From Luteolibacter sp. SL250 (GTDB lineage: Bacteria; Verrucomicrobiota; Verrucomicrobiia; Verrucomicrobiales; Akkermansiaceae), in contig NZ_CP113054.1 in the NCBI RefSeq assembly GCF_026625605.1, positions 1,240,001 through 1,304,000 on the forward strand: DNA of 64,000 bases, written 5' to 3'. Made by a program: the position numbers and the translations under genes. Below, one piece after another: positions 49,548 through 61,787 of the stretch. The notes beneath the pieces were generated by a model. The model was given only the letters and a program-made list of their open reading frames with translations, was not told where the DNA came from and searched no databases. Each line of letters begins with the position of its first letter. The stretch's first letter is position 1.

Positions 49548-51305
49548 TTACCAAGCGTTGTTGGAGAGTTCGGCGCGAAAGGTGGAAGGGGATTCATTGG
49601 TGAATTCCGGCAGGCTGTCCCGTTGTTCGATAATCCGGTTGGAACTGAATATGCCGCGTCCCGTCATGCCTTTCCCGATAAGAATTCCCGTCGAGGCAGA
49701 GCCACGTATCACGTTGTTCCGGAAGGTCAGATCCAACAGCTTGCCGCCCACTTTCACCCCCATTCGGCGGGAATCAATGATGACATTGTCACTGAAGACT
49801 ATCCTGGCCTGGACGTTCTCCCCGCCACCGATGTTGATGCCGTGGCGGATCGTGTTCCATCCTCCGCCGCGGTGGATCACATTGCCGGTGATTGTCGCGG
49901 ACTCCAGAGGCTGGCTGGTGTCACCGAAGATCGAGATCTCCATGCCGTTGTTCGCGGCGACGTCCATGATCAGATTGTCCTTCACGACGACATTCTTCCC
50001 TCCGGCGATCCTCAGTCCGTTCGCCCACCAGGTGGCTACGGTGGTGTTGTTCAGGATCCTCGTGCCATCCATCTGCGAATTGTCTCCCTTGCTTCCGGCA
50101 TCGGAGAATGCGGCGATCCCATCATCGCCCGCGCCGCGGACGAAGTTGTTTTGCACCGTGAGATTCATCCCGCGCTTGTTCGGGCTGGGGGTGTTGCCGT
50201 TGTTGACGTTGATGCCGTCCGCCCAACTGTCCGCCACGCGGCTGTCACGGATGACCCCATTGCTTCCACTGAGCCATTGGGCGTCGCAATGCTGGACCCA
50301 GATTCTTTCGATCAGCCAGTTCTCTCCGGATGATGTGACTCCATAGTCGTCGCCGCTTACACCACCGATGGCCTTGTAGATCGCGTTCGACCCGATCGAA
50401 ACATCGCGGAGCACCGAACCGGTCCCGAGCGAGATGTTCGAGCGCCACGGCAGTTTCGGAGGAGGAAGAGGGATGTTGCGGTAAAGCATCGTGTGCCACA
50501 TGCCCGCGCCGTTCACCGTTACTCCGGTGAGATTCAGGCCGCCCCCCTTGAGGGAATTCAGCATGAACTTTCCGGCGGGAATCCAGACGGACTTGCCCTC
50601 AGCCCGCGCCGTATCGATGCATCTGGCGATCGCTTCGGTGGAGTCAGCCTGGAACGCGGGATCCGCGCCGAAGTCCAGGACGGACAGGGAATTTTCCGGT
50701 CGAGGCAGCGGTGGGGCGATCTTCTCGAAATCAATGCAATCGATATCGTAGTATTCGGCTCCGTTCGCAGCGTCCTTGCGGAGTTCGACCGTTGCATTCG
50801 CTGGGATGGGCGGACCGGCCAGGATCGCGCGATCCTCGTTGTAGAAGTGATAGGGCATGCCCCCGCCTTGCGGATTGTTGATAACGGGAGCTGCCTTTCT
50901 ATAGACCCAGGATTGTCGGGAACTCACTGTGATGGCTTGCCGGAATTTGCCGTCCACGTAGAGGTTGATGGTGGACTCCTGGCCACTGCCGTCGTCCGTA
51001 TCTGGGATGCAGCTCCGGATGACGATGGTGTTCGCGCCTGCGACCGGATTCCTCCAGGAGATGGAATCGCCCGTGCGGGACAGGGTGACGTATGCCCCCC
51101 CTGATGCCTCGAGTTCCTTGGTGGATACCGTCGGCACCGGGCTGCCGATGATGAAGCGCTTCACCGCGGCGCCTCCGCCGGGATTTCCTGACTCCGCCTC
51201 CACGGTCGTGAAAGGCGTTTTAGCCCCAGCCGCACTGAGAGGTGGACAGAACGCGAGAAGGAGAAGCGGCGCGGCGAGTGTGGGCGGAAGCAGACGATTC
51301 ATCAT
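49548..51305 (-). CDS. secreted right-handed beta-helix carbohydrate-active protein with N-terminal CBM-like domain
   Basis: 585 aa. Signal peptide to about residue 26. Residues about 30-170 form a carbohydrate-binding module of CBM35/CBM6 style (TTVEAESGNPGGGA, GAYVTLSRTGDSISWRNPVA, STINLYVDGKF). From residue 195 the pectate-lyase-superfamily beta-helix begins (SVLDFGADPAFQADSTEAIA) with parallel coils through DGINVNNGN, GAGDDGIAAFSDAG and NNVIRGSASTG. Paired acidic residues at DGIN and GDDG recall glycoside hydrolases with beta-helix folds (for example GH87 alpha-1,3-glucanases), but a pectate lyase cannot be ruled out. Upstream, at 51434-51451, is a GTCCCC-N6-GGGGAC palindrome shared with the divergent PEP-CTERM gene. 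Confidence 0.85.
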   Translation of the reverse strand: MMNRLLPPTLAAPLLLLAFCPPLSAAGAKTPFTTVEAESGNPGGGAAVKRFIIGSPVPTVSTKELEASGGAYVTLSRTGDSISWRNPVAGANTIVIRSCIPDTDDGSGQESTINLYVDGKFRQAITVSSRQSWVYRKAAPVINNPQGGGMPYHFYNEDRAILAGPPIPANATVELRKDAANGAEYYDIDCIDFEKIAPPLPRPENSLSVLDFGADPAFQADSTEAIARCIDTARAEGKSVWIPAGKFMLNSLKGGGLNLTGVTVNGAGMWHTMLYRNIPLPPPKLPWRSNISLGTGSVLRDVSIGSNAIYKAIGGVSGDDYGVTSSGENWLIERIWVQHCDAQWLSGSNGVIRDSRVADSWADGINVNNGNTPSPNKRGMNLTVQNNFVRGAGDDGIAAFSDAGSKGDNSQMDGTRILNNTTVATWWANGLRIAGGKNVVVKDNLIMDVAANNGMEISIFGDTSQPLESATITGNVIHRGGGWNTIRHGINIGGGENVQARIVFSDNVIIDSRRMGVKVGGKLLDLTFRNNVIRGSASTGILIGKGMTGRGIFSSNRIIEQRDSLPEFTNESPSTFRAELSNNAW

Positions 51306-51433
51306 GAGACTTGCACTGGGAGTCGGGGAGCGTAAGCAGGCCGGTGTCAGGCCACGAGTCCTTAAATAGGGGACAGGCCCGGCTCCGCCCGCACCAGTTT
51401 ATCTGCGTTGGGCATGCCGGTCGCCAGGCCGCT

Positions 51434-51451
51434 GTCCCCATTTTCGGGGAC
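51434..51451 (+). promoter_or_regulatory. GTCCCC-N6-GGGGAC palindrome, site 1
   Basis: GTCCCCATTTTCGGGGAC, perfect six-base arms, in the 246-base divergent region between the beta-helix gene (minus) and the PEP-CTERM gene (plus). The arms, the six-base spacer and the following KAT match the site at 55021-55038. Likely an operator for a dimeric regulator; the protein is not known. Confidence 0.6.
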
Positions 51452-51551
51452 TATCTTTCGGGTCACTACGGAATCATGATTGTGGCGATCCGTCTTCTGC
51501 GGGCGCATTGGAGCGCATCCGGAATCCTGAGATCGCAACCCTTCCCAGACC

Positions 51552-52253
51552 ATGAAAATTTCGATCATCGGAGGAATCCTCGCAATCTCGACAGCCCTCG
51601 GCAGCGGTGCCACGCTGGTGGAGTATAATTTCAACGGAGGCGCCGACGGCGTCCCTGACTACTCTCCGACAACCACCGGCAGTGGAGTGAACGTGTCCGC
51701 CGTCTCACCTACCGGAACATTTGTCCGATCCGGCTCCGATCTAACCGGAGTGACCGGGGGAGGGACGCTGGCGGTGACCTTTGGAAACATCGGCAAAGAA
51801 AGCCCGCCGGTATCGGGAGCCGCGGCAAGAACCTACATCTCCTTCACCATCGGTGCTGCGAGTCCGGGACAGATCATCTCACTGACCTCGCTTTCCTTCC
51901 TCACGAACCTCGCCACGGCGCAGGCGAGCGGCGCGAACTACACGCTGCAGTACGGGAGTGCCTCGGACCCTTCCGGCTTCATGAACCTTTCCCTCTCCCC
52001 GAATACGGCACAGGTCAATTCGACGATCGTCACCCGAACGGCGGATCTTTCCGGTATCGACTTCAGCAGCTTCACCTCCGGGGTGACATTCCGGATCAAC
52101 GTCACCCAGCCGATCGACTCGACGGCCACGGGGAGCTCGAGCGCACGGATTGATATGATCAACGTCCAAGGAAGCGTCATCCCGGAGCCCGGCTCCGCGG
52201 CGCTTTTCGTTGTGGGAACCGCAGGCGTTCTCCTCGGCCGCCGGAGGAAATGA
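51552..52253 (+). CDS. PEP-CTERM protein, unknown beta-rich domain
   Basis: 233 aa. Signal peptide MKISIIGGILAISTALGSGA, then about 175 residues of low-complexity Ser/Thr/Gly-rich beta structure (LVEYNFNGGADGVPDYSPTT, AARTYISFTIGAASPGQIIS). The C terminus VIPEPGSAALFVVGTAGVLLGRRRK is a PEP-CTERM anchor with the PEP motif, a membrane stretch and an Arg-rich tail. It would be processed by an exosortase and attached to extracellular matrix. Its promoter region contains the GTCCCC palindrome. Function of the main domain unknown. Confidence 0.88.
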   Translation: MKISIIGGILAISTALGSGATLVEYNFNGGADGVPDYSPTTTGSGVNVSAVSPTGTFVRSGSDLTGVTGGGTLAVTFGNIGKESPPVSGAAARTYISFTIGAASPGQIISLTSLSFLTNLATAQASGANYTLQYGSASDPSGFMNLSLSPNTAQVNSTIVTRTADLSGIDFSSFTSGVTFRINVTQPIDSTATGSSSARIDMINVQGSVIPEPGSAALFVVGTAGVLLGRRRK

Positions 52254-52398
52254 TTTCTCCTTTCCGGCCACAGCCCCGATCTTGCCGGACATCTCCGGGA
52301 GGATCAGGGGGGGCGTGCCGGTTGACCGATCCGGTCTGACCTTCCGTTACCCGGCTGCTGGCGCGGATGGCCAGCGGCCGGTGCGGCAGGCGGAAACC

Positions 52399-54966
52399 TC
52401 AGGGCCGCTTGGCCGGTGCTTGCAGCACCTTCAGGTCATGGATGGACCAGAAGTTCCCTTTGGCTGATCCAAGCTGGGTCACACGGATGAATCTCGTGGT
52501 GACTGGGGTGAAGGAGATTTCCGTCAGAGGATTCCTTTCCTCCGGCTTCCTGGCGATGACCCTCCACGTTTTGCCATCGTCGGAGATCGAAACTTCGGTG
52601 CCGCGCGGGTAGTCGTTCACCGAACCGCGGGTGTCCAGGATGATCCCGGATGCCTTGACTGGCTTTGTCAGCTCCACCTGGAACCACATGCCGGGAAGCA
52701 TGAACTTGCCGGTGGTGTAGCGGGATCCGGCACTTTCATCGACGGCGCGGACCGCGTCGCCGCTCTTCTCCGAAGCGCTGACCTTGATTTGTGATGCCGG
52801 CATATATTGGGGCAGCCGGTCCATGAGTTCCTGGTAGGTCCAAGGTGTGGTCCGGGAAGCGGTGTCCTTCCGTGCCTGTGCGACGTCGGCATGCTGGATG
52901 AAGCTCCCCCGGTTGCCGAAGCTGTTGCGGATGTAACTCATGACGGACGCGATCCATTCGTCGTCATCCCCGCCCATCGGGATCATCAGGCCTTCGTATT
53001 TCTTCCCTTCGATCTCACCTTCGAGACCCTTTAGAAGGACGTAGATCCCGCCGTTTGGATTGTTGTTCACGATCTTGGAGCCGACAAAAGGAGGCGCGAG
53101 CATCGCTCCCTTCAGTCCCGCAATCTCACTCCCTTTGCCATCCATGCCATGGCACGCCGCGCAGACGGAATTGTAGATCTCCTGGCCCTTCTTCATGACC
53201 AGACGTTGTTGGTCGGACATTCCCGCCTGATTTTGGCCGCCTTGGAGAAGGTGTCTTCCGATCTGGGTGACGCCTTTGGCTGAAGAACCTTCAACCGTTT
53301 CCTGGATGAATTTCATGTGGTCGGGCCACGCGAGATATTTCGCTGTCAGGATGCCCTGGAGAGTCACGGCCGGATCCGGATCCTTGGCGAGATTCTGAAT
53401 GTCCTTCTGGAAAGAAGAGTCTCCGTTGAGGAAAAGGGTTTCGCTGACGCGAATCGCATTCGTACGTATCTGTGGGTCCGCGTCCGCCATCTGCCCGCGG
53501 ATGATTTGCGGGGTGAGCGCACCCAGACCCTGGAGGGTCCAGAGCGCGTGGATGCGCGCGAATGGATTTCCCTCACTCCGGACGATGTTCTCCAGCACCG
53601 GGACGACCGTCTTGTCCTGCCTCAGGACAAGGAGTCGCTGCGCGGTGTCCCGCCACCAGCCATTGGGATGCGAGAGGTGGGCGGTGAGTTGGGCGGAAGT
53701 CTCGTCATACATGCGCGGTTGTTTCACGGGACGGGTGTCCTTGTGTTCCAAGCGCCAGATCCGGCCGTGACCGGAAACCTTGTCGAACTGATATTGTTCG
53801 ACCGCTTTTCTCAGATAACTGCCCGGCCTGACCCAGTTTCCCTCCTGGATGATGCCGCGATACATGTCCGTGATGTACAGCGTGCCATCGGGAGCGTTGG
53901 TGAAATTCACCGGACGGAAGCAGAGGTCAGTGGAACGCAGGAACTCGGACTTCGTCCTCTGGTAGGGATTTGAGAGGACTTTCAAGCCGCCATCGTTGGT
54001 GACGACAGTCCGGCGGACGAGACGCCCCACCGGCTCGCCGAAGAAGACATTGCCCAGAAGCTCCCTTGGAAGCTGATCGCCGCGATAAACGTCGATGCCC
54101 GCGCAAGCTGTGAAGCCGGTGAGAGTTCCATCCGGCTCCCGGACCCGGCTGGGCCCACCTTGGAAGTCGCGCGCCCCGACCAAGGGGAAGACCTCCTTGA
54201 AACCAATGTCGAATTGCTCGGGCGGATTGAACATTCCATAGACAGGTGATGCCTGGAACGTGTTTGGACCGCGTTCACCGCTGGCGTTCACAAACCAGAG
54301 GTTGCCCAGGTCATCCTGGCCAAGTCCCCATTGCCCGCCGTTCGGTTTCGTTTCCTCTTTCTTGATTCCATCGGGAGTCCACCTGAGGCGGATGCTGTTG
54401 AGCGTGGTATAGATGGCGTTATCGAGGGCCCAGACCAAGCCGCTCGGCTGGTGTTCGAGATTCCCTCCACGGGGTCCGCCCCGGTACCAGATTTCCTTTT
54501 TGTCCGCCACTCCGTCGCCGTTCTCGTCCGTGAGCAGGAACAGATCGTTGCTGTTGGTTTCATTGATGACGAGCTGCCCTTTTCCGAGTGGCAGCATCAT
54601 GCGGGGAAGCAGCAGACCTTCGGCGAAAACCGTGTGCTTCTCGAACGTTCCGTCTCCATCCTCGTCGGCATGCATGGAAATCCTGCTGGTTTTCTCCATC
54701 TGGCCGTTGCCATCGATGTCCTGCATGTAGGTCCGCATTTCCGCCACGAACATACGCCCGTTCCCATCGAACACGGTGGCCACCGGCTCGGCGATTTGCG
54801 GCTCGGAAAGCATGAGCTGCATCCGGTAACCATCAGGCACTTCGAAAGAGCTTGCCGCTTCCTGGGGCGACAGCGCTTCCACGGGAGGCATCGCCGGGAA
54901 GTTTGCGTCCTGACCGAGACAGACGGAGAGCGCGGTGAGGGGCGGAATGAGCAGGTGGATTCTCAT
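52399..54966 (-). CDS. PVC-type heme protein: beta-propeller dehydrogenase-like, HEAT, cytochrome c and discoidin domains
   Basis: 855 aa from ATG 54966, with a signal peptide (MRIHLLIPPLTALSVCLGQ). The N-terminal half is the PVC-type membrane-bound dehydrogenase propeller (PVATVFDGNGRMFVAEMRTY, YGMFNPPEQFDIGF, GTLYITDMYRGIIQEGNWV). HEAT-like helices follow (NPFARIHALWTLQGLG), then a cytochrome c domain with CAACH (VCAACHGMDGKGSEIAGLKG) and a C-terminal F5/8 (discoidin) domain (GIILDTRGSVNDYPRGTEVS). Such proteins are expected to oxidise sugars at the surface and pass electrons to the heme. Its start is 55 bases from the GTCCCC palindrome shared with the response-regulator gene. Confidence 0.88.
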   Translation of the reverse strand: MRIHLLIPPLTALSVCLGQDANFPAMPPVEALSPQEAASSFEVPDGYRMQLMLSEPQIAEPVATVFDGNGRMFVAEMRTYMQDIDGNGQMEKTSRISMHADEDGDGTFEKHTVFAEGLLLPRMMLPLGKGQLVINETNSNDLFLLTDENGDGVADKKEIWYRGGPRGGNLEHQPSGLVWALDNAIYTTLNSIRLRWTPDGIKKEETKPNGGQWGLGQDDLGNLWFVNASGERGPNTFQASPVYGMFNPPEQFDIGFKEVFPLVGARDFQGGPSRVREPDGTLTGFTACAGIDVYRGDQLPRELLGNVFFGEPVGRLVRRTVVTNDGGLKVLSNPYQRTKSEFLRSTDLCFRPVNFTNAPDGTLYITDMYRGIIQEGNWVRPGSYLRKAVEQYQFDKVSGHGRIWRLEHKDTRPVKQPRMYDETSAQLTAHLSHPNGWWRDTAQRLLVLRQDKTVVPVLENIVRSEGNPFARIHALWTLQGLGALTPQIIRGQMADADPQIRTNAIRVSETLFLNGDSSFQKDIQNLAKDPDPAVTLQGILTAKYLAWPDHMKFIQETVEGSSAKGVTQIGRHLLQGGQNQAGMSDQQRLVMKKGQEIYNSVCAACHGMDGKGSEIAGLKGAMLAPPFVGSKIVNNNPNGGIYVLLKGLEGEIEGKKYEGLMIPMGGDDDEWIASVMSYIRNSFGNRGSFIQHADVAQARKDTASRTTPWTYQELMDRLPQYMPASQIKVSASEKSGDAVRAVDESAGSRYTTGKFMLPGMWFQVELTKPVKASGIILDTRGSVNDYPRGTEVSISDDGKTWRVIARKPEERNPLTEISFTPVTTRFIRVTQLGSAKGNFWSIHDLKVLQAPAKRP

Positions 54967-55020
54967 GGAACTTCCGGAATAGGGCCGGTCGCCGTGGGTT
55001 CGCAAGGAAAAGGGACGCAT

Positions 55021-55038
55021 GTCCCCGCAAACGGGGAC
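55021..55038 (+). promoter_or_regulatory. GTCCCC-N6-GGGGAC palindrome, site 2
   Basis: GTCCCCGCAAACGGGGAC followed by GAT, between the divergent PVC heme gene (minus, ATG 54966) and the NarL-type response-regulator gene (plus, ATG 55098). Same arms and spacer length as the site at 51434-51451; in both the spacer ends with C before GGGGAC. Confidence 0.6.
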
Positions 55039-55097: not shown

Positions 55098-55730
55098 ATG
55101 AGCGAACCAACGAAAACAGTCGTGCTGGTGGAGGATGATGTCCGTCTGCAGAAGCAGCTCATCGAAATCCTGTCCTGCTCCCATGACATAGAATGCCTCT
55201 ATGCCGTTTCATCGGCGGAGGAGGCGCTGGAAAAAATACCATCCCATCCCCCTGACGTCATCCTGATGGACATCAATCTCCCCGGGGCTTCCGGCATCGA
55301 CTGCATCCCGGAACTGAAACGGAAGCTTCCAGGATTGGAAATCGTGATGCTGACCGCCTACGAAGAGGAGGATAATCTCTTCCGTGCGCTCAAGGCCGGA
55401 GCAAGCGGATACCTCATCAAATCGAGCGATCCGCGGGAAATCTATGATGCGATCCGCGACGTCCAGAATGGCGGTGCCCCTTTTTCCAGCCACATTGCAC
55501 GGAAGGTTGTACAATATTTCCGAGCGGAGAAAAAAACGGAGGATGAGAACGCGAGGCTTTCCACCCGCGAACGCGAGGTGCTGGAAATGTTGGCTGGTGG
55601 CTATATCTACAAGGAAGTGGCGGACAAGCTGGACATAACGGTCGAAACGGTCCGCACGTATGTGAAGAGAATCTGCGTGAAGCTGCAGGTCCGCAGCAAG
55701 GTTGAAGCCATCCTCAAATACCGTTCATGA
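55098..55730 (+). CDS. NarL/FixJ-type response regulator
   Basis: 210 aa from ATG 55098, which has an AGGG six bases upstream; in-frame ATGs at 55083 and 55056 (non-ATG) are alternatives. REC domain at 1-125 with VVLVEDD, phosphoacceptor Asp58 (VILMDINLPG), Thr (VMLTAYEEED) and Lys (YLIKSSDP). A LuxR-type helix-turn-helix fills 145-205 (LSTREREVLEMLAGGYIYKEVADKL and TVETVRTYVKRICVKL). It should bind DNA as a dimer when phosphorylated. The kinase gene is convergent with only six bases between stops. The palindrome in its own promoter is a candidate target. Confidence 0.92.
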   Translation: MSEPTKTVVLVEDDVRLQKQLIEILSCSHDIECLYAVSSAEEALEKIPSHPPDVILMDINLPGASGIDCIPELKRKLPGLEIVMLTAYEEEDNLFRALKAGASGYLIKSSDPREIYDAIRDVQNGGAPFSSHIARKVVQYFRAEKKTEDENARLSTREREVLEMLAGGYIYKEVADKLDITVETVRTYVKRICVKLQVRSKVEAILKYRS

Positions 55731-55736
55731 TCGGGA

Positions 55737-57335
55737 TCACGGATAGGGAGCTTTCCGGACGGCCTTATGTTCGAGGGGCGCCCGCAGAAGGATGGCCGTC
55801 CCACATCCTCCGTTTGTTCCGATCTCGACTGATCCACCTATCTGGTTCATCCTCTGCCTGATGTTCTCGAGCCCATTGCCCGCGCCGATGGGTTCATGAA
55901 GCCCCTTGCCATTGTCTGAAACGCGTATTTCCAGATCTCGGTCATCGGCGTCCACCTTGAGGCGGATCTCGGTGGCTTCCGAATGTTTGAGCGCATTGTT
56001 CACCGCTTCCTTGACCGCCATGGTCACGTTGTGACGGAGCTCGCCTGTGACAGGCAGATCCTCGTCCGCAGGTGGGGGCGCGTCGATACGGCAACTGATG
56101 TCCAGCGGACGGCATAACCCGCCGACCATCCGGCAGAGATAGTCGGTGAGGGAACCGAGTCGGTCGTTTTTTGAGTTGAGCATCCAGACCGACTCGGAAA
56201 GCGAAGTGACAAGTTCCCGCGACATGGACGCGATCTCACCGAAATTGCGCATTGCCTCGGGGGTTGGGGCGGTGCTCATCGCATGGGCGCCCAGAAGGGA
56301 AATGTGCGAAAGCCGGGCCCCGAGATCGTCGTGGAGGTCGCGTGCGATCCGGAGCCGCTCGTCCGCGATCATGCGTGCCTCCCGCAAGTGCATCTGAATC
56401 TTTTTCCGGACGAGATGTCGGGCCACGAGAGTGGAGATCCCGGCAGCACCCAGTAAGAATGCGGCCAAATACCAGGGGTTTCTCCAATACGGCGACGCCA
56501 CCCGGACTTCGAAAACGGCAAGTCCATCCGGGGAAATGCCCGAGATGCCGAGCGATTCGACCTCAAAGCGGTAGTCTCCCGGGGGAAGTTTCCCATACTG
56601 GACCTTGAAGGGATCCCCCATCCCGGTACAGAAGACTTCCTTCCAGGTGAATTCGAGAGTTTCGCCGGGTGAGATCCGGGAGGAAGGGTTGACGACCGTC
56701 TTCCAGTCCGCGTGTCCGTTGACGTCGTCATCGGTGATGCAGTAGACCGGAGTGCCTTCCCGGTCGTGGCGGAGCGATGCCATGGAAGGACGCGTTCCCC
56801 CCTTTGCCCAGTCGGTGGACACATCGGCGCCTATCAGCACCCGCGGTGCCGCAGCATCGTTCCGTGCCGTTACGTTGAGATGGCTGATGGCGAAGATCCC
56901 AACTGCTGCAGCAGGTCCCGCCGATGAGATGGTGACAGCCACATTGCGGGCGTCTGGAGGCACTACGATCGATTCGCGGCGGTCGGTCGCGGCGGAATTG
57001 GCTTCGGAACCTTTCCAGCCTGTGCTCTTCCCTTTCACCAGGAACGACTGCTGGGCGATCTGGTCACCGGTGGAATCAAGGAAGCGAACGAGAAAATACA
57101 TCTCCCCGGTCCGTTCGCTCCAATCCGTCTCGTAACCGACAAGGCGATGCCGGATGAACCCCGGACGGGGCTTCACTTCAAACCGGATCTGCGACGAATC
57201 GTAGGGAATCTCGGAACGGCGCCCGGAGGAGGGTCCGCCATCGACGCCGACTTCTATGGTGGTCCGCAGAGGGGAAGCGAACCCCACCTGGGCGGACAGA
57301 AGGAGCATCACGGCTTGGACCCGGTTGCGGCACAT
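55737..57335 (-). CDS. HisKA_3-type sensor kinase with large extracytoplasmic domain
   Basis: 532 aa from ATG 57335 (a TTG 39 bases upstream also gives an open frame). Signal peptide/anchor at the N terminus, about 260 extracytoplasmic residues of beta structure, a membrane helix (PWYLAAFLLGAAGISTLVA, about 303-325), then RIARDLHDDLGARLSHI (HisKA_3 phosphoacceptor His) and HATPase_c (MAVKEAVNNALKHSEATEI, VSDNGKG). The front part includes a GDYRFEVESLGISG segment like the triple-Y beta-sandwich of sugar-responsive sensors in Bacteroidetes and Verrucomicrobia. Convergent with the NarL-type regulator gene, six bases apart, so it is most likely its kinase. Confidence 0.9.
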   Translation of the reverse strand: MCRNRVQAVMLLLSAQVGFASPLRTTIEVGVDGGPSSGRRSEIPYDSSQIRFEVKPRPGFIRHRLVGYETDWSERTGEMYFLVRFLDSTGDQIAQQSFLVKGKSTGWKGSEANSAATDRRESIVVPPDARNVAVTISSAGPAAAVGIFAISHLNVTARNDAAAPRVLIGADVSTDWAKGGTRPSMASLRHDREGTPVYCITDDDVNGHADWKTVVNPSSRISPGETLEFTWKEVFCTGMGDPFKVQYGKLPPGDYRFEVESLGISGISPDGLAVFEVRVASPYWRNPWYLAAFLLGAAGISTLVARHLVRKKIQMHLREARMIADERLRIARDLHDDLGARLSHISLLGAHAMSTAPTPEAMRNFGEIASMSRELVTSLSESVWMLNSKNDRLGSLTDYLCRMVGGLCRPLDISCRIDAPPPADEDLPVTGELRHNVTMAVKEAVNNALKHSEATEIRLKVDADDRDLEIRVSDNGKGLHEPIGAGNGLENIRQRMNQIGGSVEIGTNGGCGTAILLRAPLEHKAVRKAPYP

Positions 57336-57437
57336 AAGGAAATTCAGATATCCGTTTGGATGGGGCAGCGGCAAGTTGGAACAAAGAAATCCGGGATCGG
57401 CTCATCCTCTCTGGTTTGGACCGATGCTCGTGTGGCG

Positions 57438-58432: not shown

Positions 58433-59896
58433 CTAACGTGTCAAATGGAAGAGCGTGCGGACCGGATCTCCCTTGCCATCTTCCGTGGCGTAAAAAGGAC
58501 GCTTTTCCACATTGAAAGCGCTTTTCGGGCTCACCCCCATGGCGGTGAATATAGTCGCATGCAAGTCCATGATCGACACCGGATCCTTCACCGCAACAAG
58601 GGGCCTGTCATCAGCGGTCGCACCGTGAACGTGACCTCTTTTCATTCCTCCGCCAAACATCAGAACCGAAGAACCACCCGTGAAGTGACGATGCAGGCCA
58701 AAATGTTTCATCTCCTGCAACGTTTCCGATTTTGCGCGGGACTGGTCCGCCGCGTCCGACCCCGGTGTGCCTTCGATCATCATGTCTCGGCTAAACTCAC
58801 TGGCGACGACCACAAGCGTGCGTTCCAACATGTTCCGCTCTTCGAGATCACGAATCAGCCGGGCGATAGGACGGTCAATCTCAGCTTTGAGCCGTGCCGC
58901 CGTCTCATGTCCATTCTCATGGGTGTCCCAGTTTAGAAACGGCACATATTCCGTGGTCACTTCCACGAATCTCGCTCCTTTCTCCGCAAGCCGTCGTGCC
59001 AACAGGCATCCGCGGCCGAACCGGCTGTGACCATATTCTTCGAGAGTTTCACCGGATTCTTGAAAAATGTCGAAGGCTTTCCTCTCCGGGGACCCGAGCA
59101 GACGATGAGCGTTCTCAAGTGCGTTCAGCATCGATTCCTGTTGGTAATCACTCATGAACTCGCGGTGAGGGCTTTTGTCGACCAGCCTCTTATACGCAGC
59201 ATACCGATTTGAGAATCTGCCTGCAGTCATGCCGTTTGGAGGGCTCACGGATCGCCCCGCTTCGTCAGGATAGGGCAGGTTGAACGGACCGAACTCGGCA
59301 CCTAAGAAGCCCCCTGTTGTGAAAGCTTTCAGTTCCTCGCTTTCGCCGATTCCCTCCAGACGCTGACCTACGTTGATGAATGCGGGCATGGCCGGATTCC
59401 TGGGACCCAGCACGCGGGCCATCCATGCCCCGATATGGGGTGCAGCGACTGTCTGCGGAGGCACGTAGCCCGTGTGCCAGTGGTATTGATGGCGAGAATG
59501 TAGAATCGTGCCGAGATCGGGTTGGACATGGGAGCGGATCAAAGTGGCCCGGTCCATCAGTTTGGCGATCTCGTCCAGACCGCGGCTGATTTTCAGGCCG
59601 TCTACTGAGGTGTTAATGGCAGGAAATGTGCTGAGAACCTTTCGGACAGGTAATCCTTTCTCAAACGGTTGATACGCTTTCGGATCGAAAGTTTCGGGCG
59701 ATGCCATACCACCCGCCATCCACAACAAGATACAACAATCTGCAGTTGATTCGGGATGGGACACCTTCTCGGCCATCGTGCGCGGGACGCCCGACATCGA
59801 CGCTGCGAGGGCGGACGCAGAGAGGGCCTTGAGAAATGAGCGCCGGGCAATCCCGGTATCTGAAACATCGAAGGGTAGTGAGGAATGAACGGGCAT
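58433..59896 (-). CDS. DUF1501 family protein (second copy)
   Basis: 487 aa from ATG 59896 (MPVHSSLPFDVSDTGIARRS). Tat-type signal (ARRSFLKALSASALAASMSG), then the DUF1501 domain with ILLWMAGGMASPETFDPKAY at the front, LNWDTHENGHETAARLKAEI in the middle and VVVASEFSRD and GLHRHFTG near the C-terminal metal-binding end. It is only distantly related to the DUF1501 protein at 6684. Its ATG is 16 bases after the stop of the PSD1 gene upstream, reproducing the gene order of the first pair (PSD1 then DUF1501). Confidence 0.92.
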   Translation of the reverse strand: MPVHSSLPFDVSDTGIARRSFLKALSASALAASMSGVPRTMAEKVSHPESTADCCILLWMAGGMASPETFDPKAYQPFEKGLPVRKVLSTFPAINTSVDGLKISRGLDEIAKLMDRATLIRSHVQPDLGTILHSRHQYHWHTGYVPPQTVAAPHIGAWMARVLGPRNPAMPAFINVGQRLEGIGESEELKAFTTGGFLGAEFGPFNLPYPDEAGRSVSPPNGMTAGRFSNRYAAYKRLVDKSPHREFMSDYQQESMLNALENAHRLLGSPERKAFDIFQESGETLEEYGHSRFGRGCLLARRLAEKGARFVEVTTEYVPFLNWDTHENGHETAARLKAEIDRPIARLIRDLEERNMLERTLVVVASEFSRDMMIEGTPGSDAADQSRAKSETLQEMKHFGLHRHFTGGSSVLMFGGGMKRGHVHGATADDRPLVAVKDPVSIMDLHATIFTAMGVSPKSAFNVEKRPFYATEDGKGDPVRTLFHLTR

Positions 59897-59912
59897 GGGC
59901 GTTGGCGATTGT

Positions 59913-61787
59913 CTAGCGGACAAATTGAAACTCCGGCAACAGGAGGACGATCCACAGCAAGTCTTCGATGGTGTGAGGCGAGAGGTTTTTGTCGATCAGC
60001 CCGAGCAGTGTTTCGAGCTCGATATCCGAGGGCATTCTGCTCAGCGCCCGCAGGTAGATTGATTCGATTACCTCGTTCTCAGATTGCAACTCTGATGACA
60101 GTTTAATGGCGCCTTTACTTAGCAGTCCCGCGAGAATCTCGCCGTTGGCCATGTCTATAGCTTCGAGTGTTGTAATATTGTCCGGGCGCATGCTCACGAT
60201 CTGCTCTCTGTTTGGCCGTCCAAGCGCGCGCATGAGGGGATCTGATTCCACCAATGATGCTCTAACCTTCCTTCCGGGATCTCGCGGGCGGACAATCGAC
60301 CTGTGAGGGCTATCTGGCGCGGTCCCGGTTAGTGTCCAGACGGCATCCACGAATTGCTCTGCGGTCATCCGTTTGGCGATCGGGCCTCGGAATTCCCGGT
60401 GGGTTACCTTGTCCCTTGGCACCGACGCGGATTGGTATGTGCGCGACGAGACGATGAACAAGAGCGATTTCTTTAGGTCATAGCCGTCATCAGCAAAGCG
60501 TGTCGCGAGATAATCGAGGACGTCCTCGCTCCAAGGTTCCGAATCCATTGAATCCACGGGATGGACAATGCCCCTTCCCAGCAATCGTTCCCAAAGCCGA
60601 TTGACGATCGTGCGGGTAAAGCGTCCGTTTTCGGGGTGTGTCATCAACCCGGATAGTTGCTTCAGGCGTTCTTGACGTGATGCGGTTGCATCCACCTCAC
60701 CAAGTTCAGGGTAAATCCATCTCGGCGTCGCAATGCGATCCGTTGGTTTGTCGCAGCGTGCGATCTCCAAAGGCGTCTCCGCATAAATTGCGGCGAGGCC
60801 GTAAGCATCGTCGAGCTTCCAGTTGTCCACGAAACTGTCGTGACAGGAAGCACATTTCATATTCAGACCGAGGAACGTCTGGCTGATCGATTGGGCGAAC
60901 TGAATCTCAGTTGTCTGGCTTGCGTTGACACGCCCACGCCATTTTATCCCCCGAATAAAGCCCTCCGATTGTCGAGTTGTCGGCGCGATCAGTTCTTTCG
61001 CAAACTGGTTGTAGGGCTTGTTTTCGAGTAGCGCGTTGTAGAGCCACTCCGTTATAGGTGTGCGACCCCCATCGATGTATCCGGTGCCCTGATAGTCGTT
61101 CCTCAAAAGATCATTCCAAAATGAGATCCAGTGTTCCGCATATCCCATGTTGTCCGAGAGAAAACGCTCTGCGAGTTCTGAACGTTTGGATGGATTCCTG
61201 TCTTTTGCGAATGCCTCCAGAATCTCGGGACTGGGAAGCATCCCGATGAGATCGAGGGATAAGCGCCGGGCGAATTCGCGATCACTCAGAAGGCGTGGTT
61301 GTTGGATGTTCCTGGCCTGGTGATATTCGTCAATTATCCTGTCCAATGGATGGTCCCGTCCATCGCGGCCTGGAGGGATCGGCGGGCGGCGGGGCTTTAA
61401 TGCGGGCGTGTAGGACTCGGTCCCAAGAGCGATACCTGGTTCCCACTTCATGCCCTCTTTGATCCATTCACTGATAATCGCGGCCTCCTGAGAACTGAGT
61501 CGTTTGCCTTCGGGGGGCATCATTATGTCCTCATCGTGAGAGAGGATGACATCCATCAGACGACTTTCCTCTGGCCTTCCAAGGGTGACGATCTCGCCGG
61601 CTTTGGAACCATTGAGAATCGATTCGCGGGTGTTGAGAGATAATCCACCCTTCTTAGCTTCTCCGATATGACATTTTCCGCAGTGTTTGTGCAAAATGGG
61701 AACCACCCTGTGGACAAAGTCGGTCTCGCCTGAGCTGCGGTACGAAGCGACGAGAAAGAACAAGCATTGAAGATAGATAAAACGCAT
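59913..61787 (-). CDS. PSCyt1-DUF1549-DUF1553 (PSD1) protein
   Basis: 624 aa. Signal peptide MRFIYLQCLFFLVASYRSSGE, then PSCyt1 (FVHRVVPILHKHCGKCHIGE with CxxCH, and DEDIMMPPEGKRLSSQEAAI). DUF1549 follows (REFARRLSLDLIGMLPSPEI) and its CxxCH site is MKCASCHDSF; DUF1553 is in the last 250 residues (TRTIVNRLWERLLGRGIVHP). At 624 aa it is short for a cytochrome-bearing PSD1 protein, which is usually 800-1100. The counted sequence lines inside the gene are 53-55% GC. Operon with the DUF1501 gene that follows. Confidence 0.93.
   Translation of the reverse strand: MRFIYLQCLFFLVASYRSSGETDFVHRVVPILHKHCGKCHIGEAKKGGLSLNTRESILNGSKAGEIVTLGRPEESRLMDVILSHDEDIMMPPEGKRLSSQEAAIISEWIKEGMKWEPGIALGTESYTPALKPRRPPIPPGRDGRDHPLDRIIDEYHQARNIQQPRLLSDREFARRLSLDLIGMLPSPEILEAFAKDRNPSKRSELAERFLSDNMGYAEHWISFWNDLLRNDYQGTGYIDGGRTPITEWLYNALLENKPYNQFAKELIAPTTRQSEGFIRGIKWRGRVNASQTTEIQFAQSISQTFLGLNMKCASCHDSFVDNWKLDDAYGLAAIYAETPLEIARCDKPTDRIATPRWIYPELGEVDATASRQERLKQLSGLMTHPENGRFTRTIVNRLWERLLGRGIVHPVDSMDSEPWSEDVLDYLATRFADDGYDLKKSLLFIVSSRTYQSASVPRDKVTHREFRGPIAKRMTAEQFVDAVWTLTGTAPDSPHRSIVRPRDPGRKVRASLVESDPLMRALGRPNREQIVSMRPDNITTLEAIDMANGEILAGLLSKGAIKLSSELQSENEVIESIYLRALSRMPSDIELETLLGLIDKNLSPHTIEDLLWIVLLLPEFQFVR

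Follow-up and report, generated by a model that had tools for sequence, protein, structure and literature searches.

The systems that most closely resemble the one analysed here are the two-component systems of the NarL/FixJ type, such as NarXL, DesK/DesR, VraSR, and DosSR, and the hybrid regulators of Bacteroidota PUL, in which sensor, kinase, receiver, and an AraC-type helix-turn-helix (HTH) are joined in one protein. In mycobacteria, the DosR (DevR) box is an operator of the NarL family with GGGAC as its half-site, arranged as GGGACT..AGTCCC around a short centre. Here we describe a window of 64,000 nucleotides, positions 1240001–1304000 of the single 4,916,937-base (4.9 Mb) contig of Luteolibacter sp. 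SL250, in which the palindrome GTCCCC-N6-GGGGAC occurs in two promoter regions. Sequence comparison made it very likely that these palindromes are operators of the NarL-family response regulator whose gene lies next to one of them and which would control its own gene, that of a haem/cytochrome-c dehydrogenase-like protein and, probably, a PEP-CTERM/beta-helix gene pair. The initial annotation knew of no regulator assigned to the palindrome, and the open-licence literature searched yielded no paper describing the motif or the pair and, for Verrucomicrobiota, no comparable operator–regulator pair or regulon.

Two palindromes in divergent promoters

Both palindromes matched the proposed pattern exactly and also shared the flanks first noticed: the right arm is preceded by C in each and followed by TAT at 51434 and GAT at 55021 (K-A-T). 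Their location in two divergent promoters serving four genes was likewise borne out by gene starts 54–128 bp away (Table 1). The palindrome at 51434 lies 128 bp from the start of the beta-helix gene and 100 bp from that of the PEP-CTERM gene, and for the palindrome at 55021 the corresponding distances are 54 bp (dehydrogenase) and 59 bp (regulator); for the dehydrogenase, the ATG at 54966 was taken as the start, the mechanical ORF start being 55020. The weak candidate second site in front of the beta-helix gene may be a chance match.

Table 1. Predicted sites and genes of the palindrome-bearing region, in coordinates of the window.
Feature	Position	Strand	Remarks
CatAgl_D1/beta-helix, alpha-1,3-glucanase-like secreted protein	49548..51305	-	Candidate target of palindrome 1; CatAgl_D1 7.3e-34
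Weak candidate second site	51358..51374	.	GTCCTT-AAATA-GGGGAC, 2 mismatches, N5, ~50 bp before beta-helix start
Palindrome 1, GTCCCCATTTTCGGGGAC	51434..51451	.	GTCCCC-ATTTTC-GGGGAC, then TAT; predicted operator, exact pattern match
PEP-CTERM protein	51552..52253	+	Candidate target of palindrome 1; PEP-CTERM 19.9 bits, cutoff 20.7
PVC-type haem/cytochrome-c dehydrogenase-like protein	52399..54966	-	DUF7133, cytochrome c, F5/8C
Palindrome 2, GTCCCCGCAAACGGGGAC	55021..55038	.	GTCCCC-GCAAAC-GGGGAC; predicted autoregulation operator, exact match
NarL/FixJ-type response regulator, 210 aa	55098..55730	+	Predicted binder; HTH GYIYKEVADKLDITVETVRTYVKRIC
Partner sensor histidine kinase	55737..57374	-	Beta-rich periplasmic region, one TM, HisKA_3/HATPase

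The exact pattern occurred twice in the whole genome, both times in the window and between genes, against one copy of a control pattern and about 1.5 copies expected from base composition. One-mismatch sites numbered 29, compared with 22 for the control pattern. When exact and one-mismatch loci with N5 or N6 spacers were pooled, 40 of 49 were called coding and 9 were not, and the most site-like of these nine (L068) proved to be coding on closer look. The genome-wide search suggested at the outset upheld the two sites as the only exact copies, both intergenic, but the near-matches were mostly coding. A genome-wide regulon in SL250 was rejected on these grounds. A REP-like element was also rejected, as the extended palindrome TGTCCCC..GGGGACA has no copy in this genome.

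Within the SL250 genome alone, only the 3.6-kb clustering is unusual (P about 0.0015 for a second random copy at such closeness), the number of copies being no more than chance. Both the copy number and the near-match count are in keeping with two GC-rich palindromes having arisen 3.6 kb apart by coincidence. That the palindrome exceeds chance follows from the comparison with relatives, which was decisive, the evidence from its own genome being weak.

Distribution of the palindrome in relatives

The best regulator orthologs in relatives were 62–75% identical to that of SL250, each encoded immediately after a kinase of this type and in the same orientation. In the 20-kb neighbourhoods, the palindrome appeared again, with a 5-bp spacer. 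Five congeners with a 72–75% identical regulator also carried the palindrome, with a 5-bp spacer in their clusters compared with the 6 bp peculiar to SL250, in 2–8 copies each (G050, 8; G009, 5; G004, 4; G019, 3; G029, 2); otherwise, only isolated copies were found. All eight copies in G050 lay within 34 kb around its regulator and all four in G004 within 20 kb, while the three in G019 were on the regulator's contig and two of the five in G009 were beside the kinase/regulator pair; the G029 assembly is too fragmented for such distances. Of the copies inspected in relatives, one isolated G009 copy fell inside a gene and one G029 copy sat at a contig end without gene calls; the others were intergenic. 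At least two sites were present in 6/6 congeners with this class of regulator (hereafter site-class) and in 0/56 of the others sampled (Fisher p = 1.6e-8, a value that ignores phylogeny). The full genus, with 73 genomes searched for N5 or N6 spacers, gave the same picture.

Read in gene direction, the sites of the relatives have the approximate consensus YTGTCCCC-GCTTT-GGGGACTAT. The spacer T-tract of both SL250 sites agrees with it, that of site 2 on the dehydrogenase-facing strand, as does the TAT after site 1, including the T following GGGGAC. Taken together with the clustering of the same palindrome around the orthologous regulator and its position ahead of the same dehydrogenase gene, the T-tract match argues against coincidence, a reading that these comparative data largely refute and that we consider very improbable.

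Two further features of the relatives were observed. Similar sequence extends downstream of the palindrome at two positions in G050 (L089 and L091, G050:C1:4171833 and 4200737), pointing to a duplicated promoter. The site-class regulator gene of G004 (L057 9429–10039, i.e., G004:C1:1669429–1670039) is split over two frames, covering residues 6–62 and 46–210, by a frameshift or an assembly error; this genome still has its predicted operators.

The kinase/regulator pair and its promoters

The regulator showed a receiver domain (Pfam Response_reg, 2.4e-25) followed by a GerE/LuxR-type HTH (GerE, 1e-15). Its nearest solved relative was NarL, with a full-length alignment (1.8e-32), and the phospho-acceptor aspartate, D58, was invariant in 14 aligned orthologs. 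The closest named regulators, at 68–69%, were from Akkermansiaceae. The adjacent kinase matched HisKA_3 (3.2e-8) and HATPase (2.6e-11), as in NarL/FixJ two-component systems. In a structural model of the kinase, moderate in quality (mean pLDDT 68), a DesK-like core was accompanied by a single membrane helix and an extracytoplasmic region rich in beta structure. Assigning a sensor fold from this model was abandoned, since the matches listed were kinases, aligned over about the length of the kinase core, and offered no clue to a ligand.

Kinase and regulator genes are convergent in SL250 and in tandem on one strand in 12/12 orthologous loci; the SL250 regulator gene has changed its orientation, and one divergent promoter now serves both it and the dehydrogenase gene. 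Inversion by flanking repeats was rejected as the cause, as no long inverted repeat of high identity accounts for the flipped gene. The neighbours of the kinase at 58433–61787 are a DUF1501 gene and a PSCyt1/PSCyt2/PSD1 gene pair, a combination characteristic of PVC bacteria; a palindrome ahead of this group was looked for and not found. A second kinase/NarL-type regulator pair is located just past the window end (G000:C1:1304560–1307177).

In G009, G004, and G019 the site precedes the kinase gene; in SL250 and in G050, whose kinase and regulator genes are about 360 bp apart, it precedes the regulator gene. In a motif-free search of six kinase/regulator promoters, SL250 included, GTCCCC was the sole shared 6-nt inverted-repeat arm and was present in 5/6, so that it is found repeatedly ahead of the operon encoding the regulator; after shuffling, an arm common to at least three promoters appeared in 0/2000 trials. 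The suggestion that the NarL-type protein is the natural candidate and controls its own promoter is strengthened by these sites in the kinase/regulator promoters of four further genomes. In an Akkermansiaceae MAG with a site-class regulator (L128), the kinase promoter had no site and one copy was found nearby, before a PEP-CTERM gene; the missing promoter site, like the differing spacer of SL250, counts against the operator reading. A signal resembling a -10 element, 23 nt beyond the site, exceeded 1000 shuffles and would fit activation from just upstream of the -35 element, a suggestive but weak indication because some of the promoters are duplicates.

The palindromes could instead act as RNA hairpins, in an attenuator or a leader structure. 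Both sites do fold into an RNA stem of 6–7 bp, and the plus strand of site 2 reached z = -2.5, but the other strands gave only -0.5 to -1.6 and Rfam had no match for the sites. The arm letters are constant in the kinase/regulator promoters, with no compensated change, the sites lie in shared divergent promoters, and they occur in step with the HTH residues of a single regulator, all of which speaks for a protein-binding DNA site and makes a hairpin the least probable of the explanations considered.

Candidate reader of the site

Kinase and regulator were the only gene families common to 5/5 site-bearing neighbourhoods. Site-class regulators read GYIYKE...ETVRTYVKRIC (Y171/E183), and sister regulators without sites read GYIHKE...(P/A)TVRTYV(K/R)RIC (H171, P or A183). 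Congeners lacking a site-class regulator, including those with a sister regulator, had essentially no sites; when the kinase promoters of the sister class were viewed by eye for a shared operator, only ordinary promoter-like sequence was seen. The palindrome thus follows the regulator class and is all but lacking where that class is missing, which favours the protein encoded at 55098–55730 as the predicted binder, as first proposed.

A different DNA-binding protein might nevertheless read the palindrome, the kinase/regulator pair being merely one of its targets. The second kinase/regulator pair past the window end would be one candidate, and others would come from the NarL-type genes, which number up to about 30 per genome. 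However, no other regulator family was common to the five site-bearing neighbourhoods and the sites disappear together with the site-class regulator, so we regard another reader as improbable.

Lys179 of DosR is described as a base-contacting residue (PMC4082495), and position 183 of the present regulator would correspond to it by residue order. The combination Y171/E183 is not sufficient, because regulators from another family (G077, G098), at 62% identity, also have Y and E, and no site of such spacing was seen nearby. Operators and regulator may have changed together: a regulator family of one genus would have split in two through a change where the DNA-reading helix begins, the class with E183 and Y171 keeping the GTCCCC palindrome and that with P/A183 and H171 lacking it, and in SL250 both sites would have exchanged a 5-bp spacer for one of 6 bp while the regulator gene flipped relative to its kinase. 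We put this forward as a tentative and rather doubtful reading. If it is true, the regulator classes and the spacer shift are a natural record of regulator–operator co-change.

Candidate target genes and proposed mechanism

The dehydrogenase is the best-supported predicted target besides the regulator itself. Among ten other genomes searched, orthologs at 67–68% identity were found only in G050 and G009, the next best match being 46%, and in both the gene is the second in a same-strand run that starts right after a site. In G009 the regulator and this run with its site are on separate contigs, implying action in trans. The initial proposal that the regulator also controls the neighbouring genes held for the dehydrogenase, which stands behind a site in 3/3 genomes with an ortholog of at least 67%, but the beta-helix and PEP-CTERM genes received little comparative support. 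Control through palindrome 1 is probable for the PEP-CTERM gene, given its position and the PEP-CTERM target in the Akkermansiaceae MAG, and also for the beta-helix gene, given its position.

Other genes directly behind sites in relatives included those for autotransporter-repeat proteins, lectin-like proteins, and further DUF7133 proteins, as well as DUF6807, a SASA esterase, and an MFS transporter. Their site clusters also contained GH92, ROK, phosphomannose isomerase, sulfatase, and rhamnosidase-like genes, together with GH99-like matches that fell below the curated cutoff. From this gene content, our guess is that the cue is a carbohydrate, possibly mannose-rich. The kinase would probably sense an extracytoplasmic cue, perhaps such a carbohydrate, and phosphorylate the regulator, a dimer of which would bind GTCCCC-N5/6-GGGGAC upstream of the target promoters. 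Binding would most likely activate the genes of the regulator and the dehydrogenase and, probably, those of the PEP-CTERM/beta-helix pair. Judged from sequence, a small regulon of secreted, carbohydrate-related genes under a self-controlling NarL-family two-component system is supported.

This would give a candidate operator to a previously unassigned Verrucomicrobiota response regulator, and would connect carbohydrate-active genes and the abundant, poorly understood haem/cytochrome proteins of PVC bacteria (DUF7133) with a single two-component signal. The sister regulator classes offer a clean test of the residues that set specificity.

Comparison with known systems

The SL250 system resembles NarXL, DesK/DesR, VraSR, and DosSR in the order of receiver and GerE HTH in its regulator, in its HisKA_3 kinase with a DesK-like catalytic core, and in a predicted operator that is a dimer-sized inverted repeat with apparent self-regulation. 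It differs from them in an operator sequence and spacing that matched no named one and in its predicted targets, a set of secreted, haem, and carbohydrate-related proteins from Akkermansiaceae-like bacteria. The GGGAC half-site is shared with the DosR box, but in the SL250 arrangement, GTCCCC..GGGGAC, the half-sites do not face the centre as in the DosR-type box and the centre is longer, at 5–6 bp. As with the hybrid regulators of Bacteroidota PUL, a membrane sensor lies beside a local cluster that it apparently controls, and the clusters of relatives hold glycoside hydrolases, esterases, sulfatases, and a transporter; SusC/D were not seen among the genes examined. Unlike those hybrid regulators, the functions are divided here between a separate kinase and a NarL-type regulator, with a GerE rather than an AraC-type HTH.
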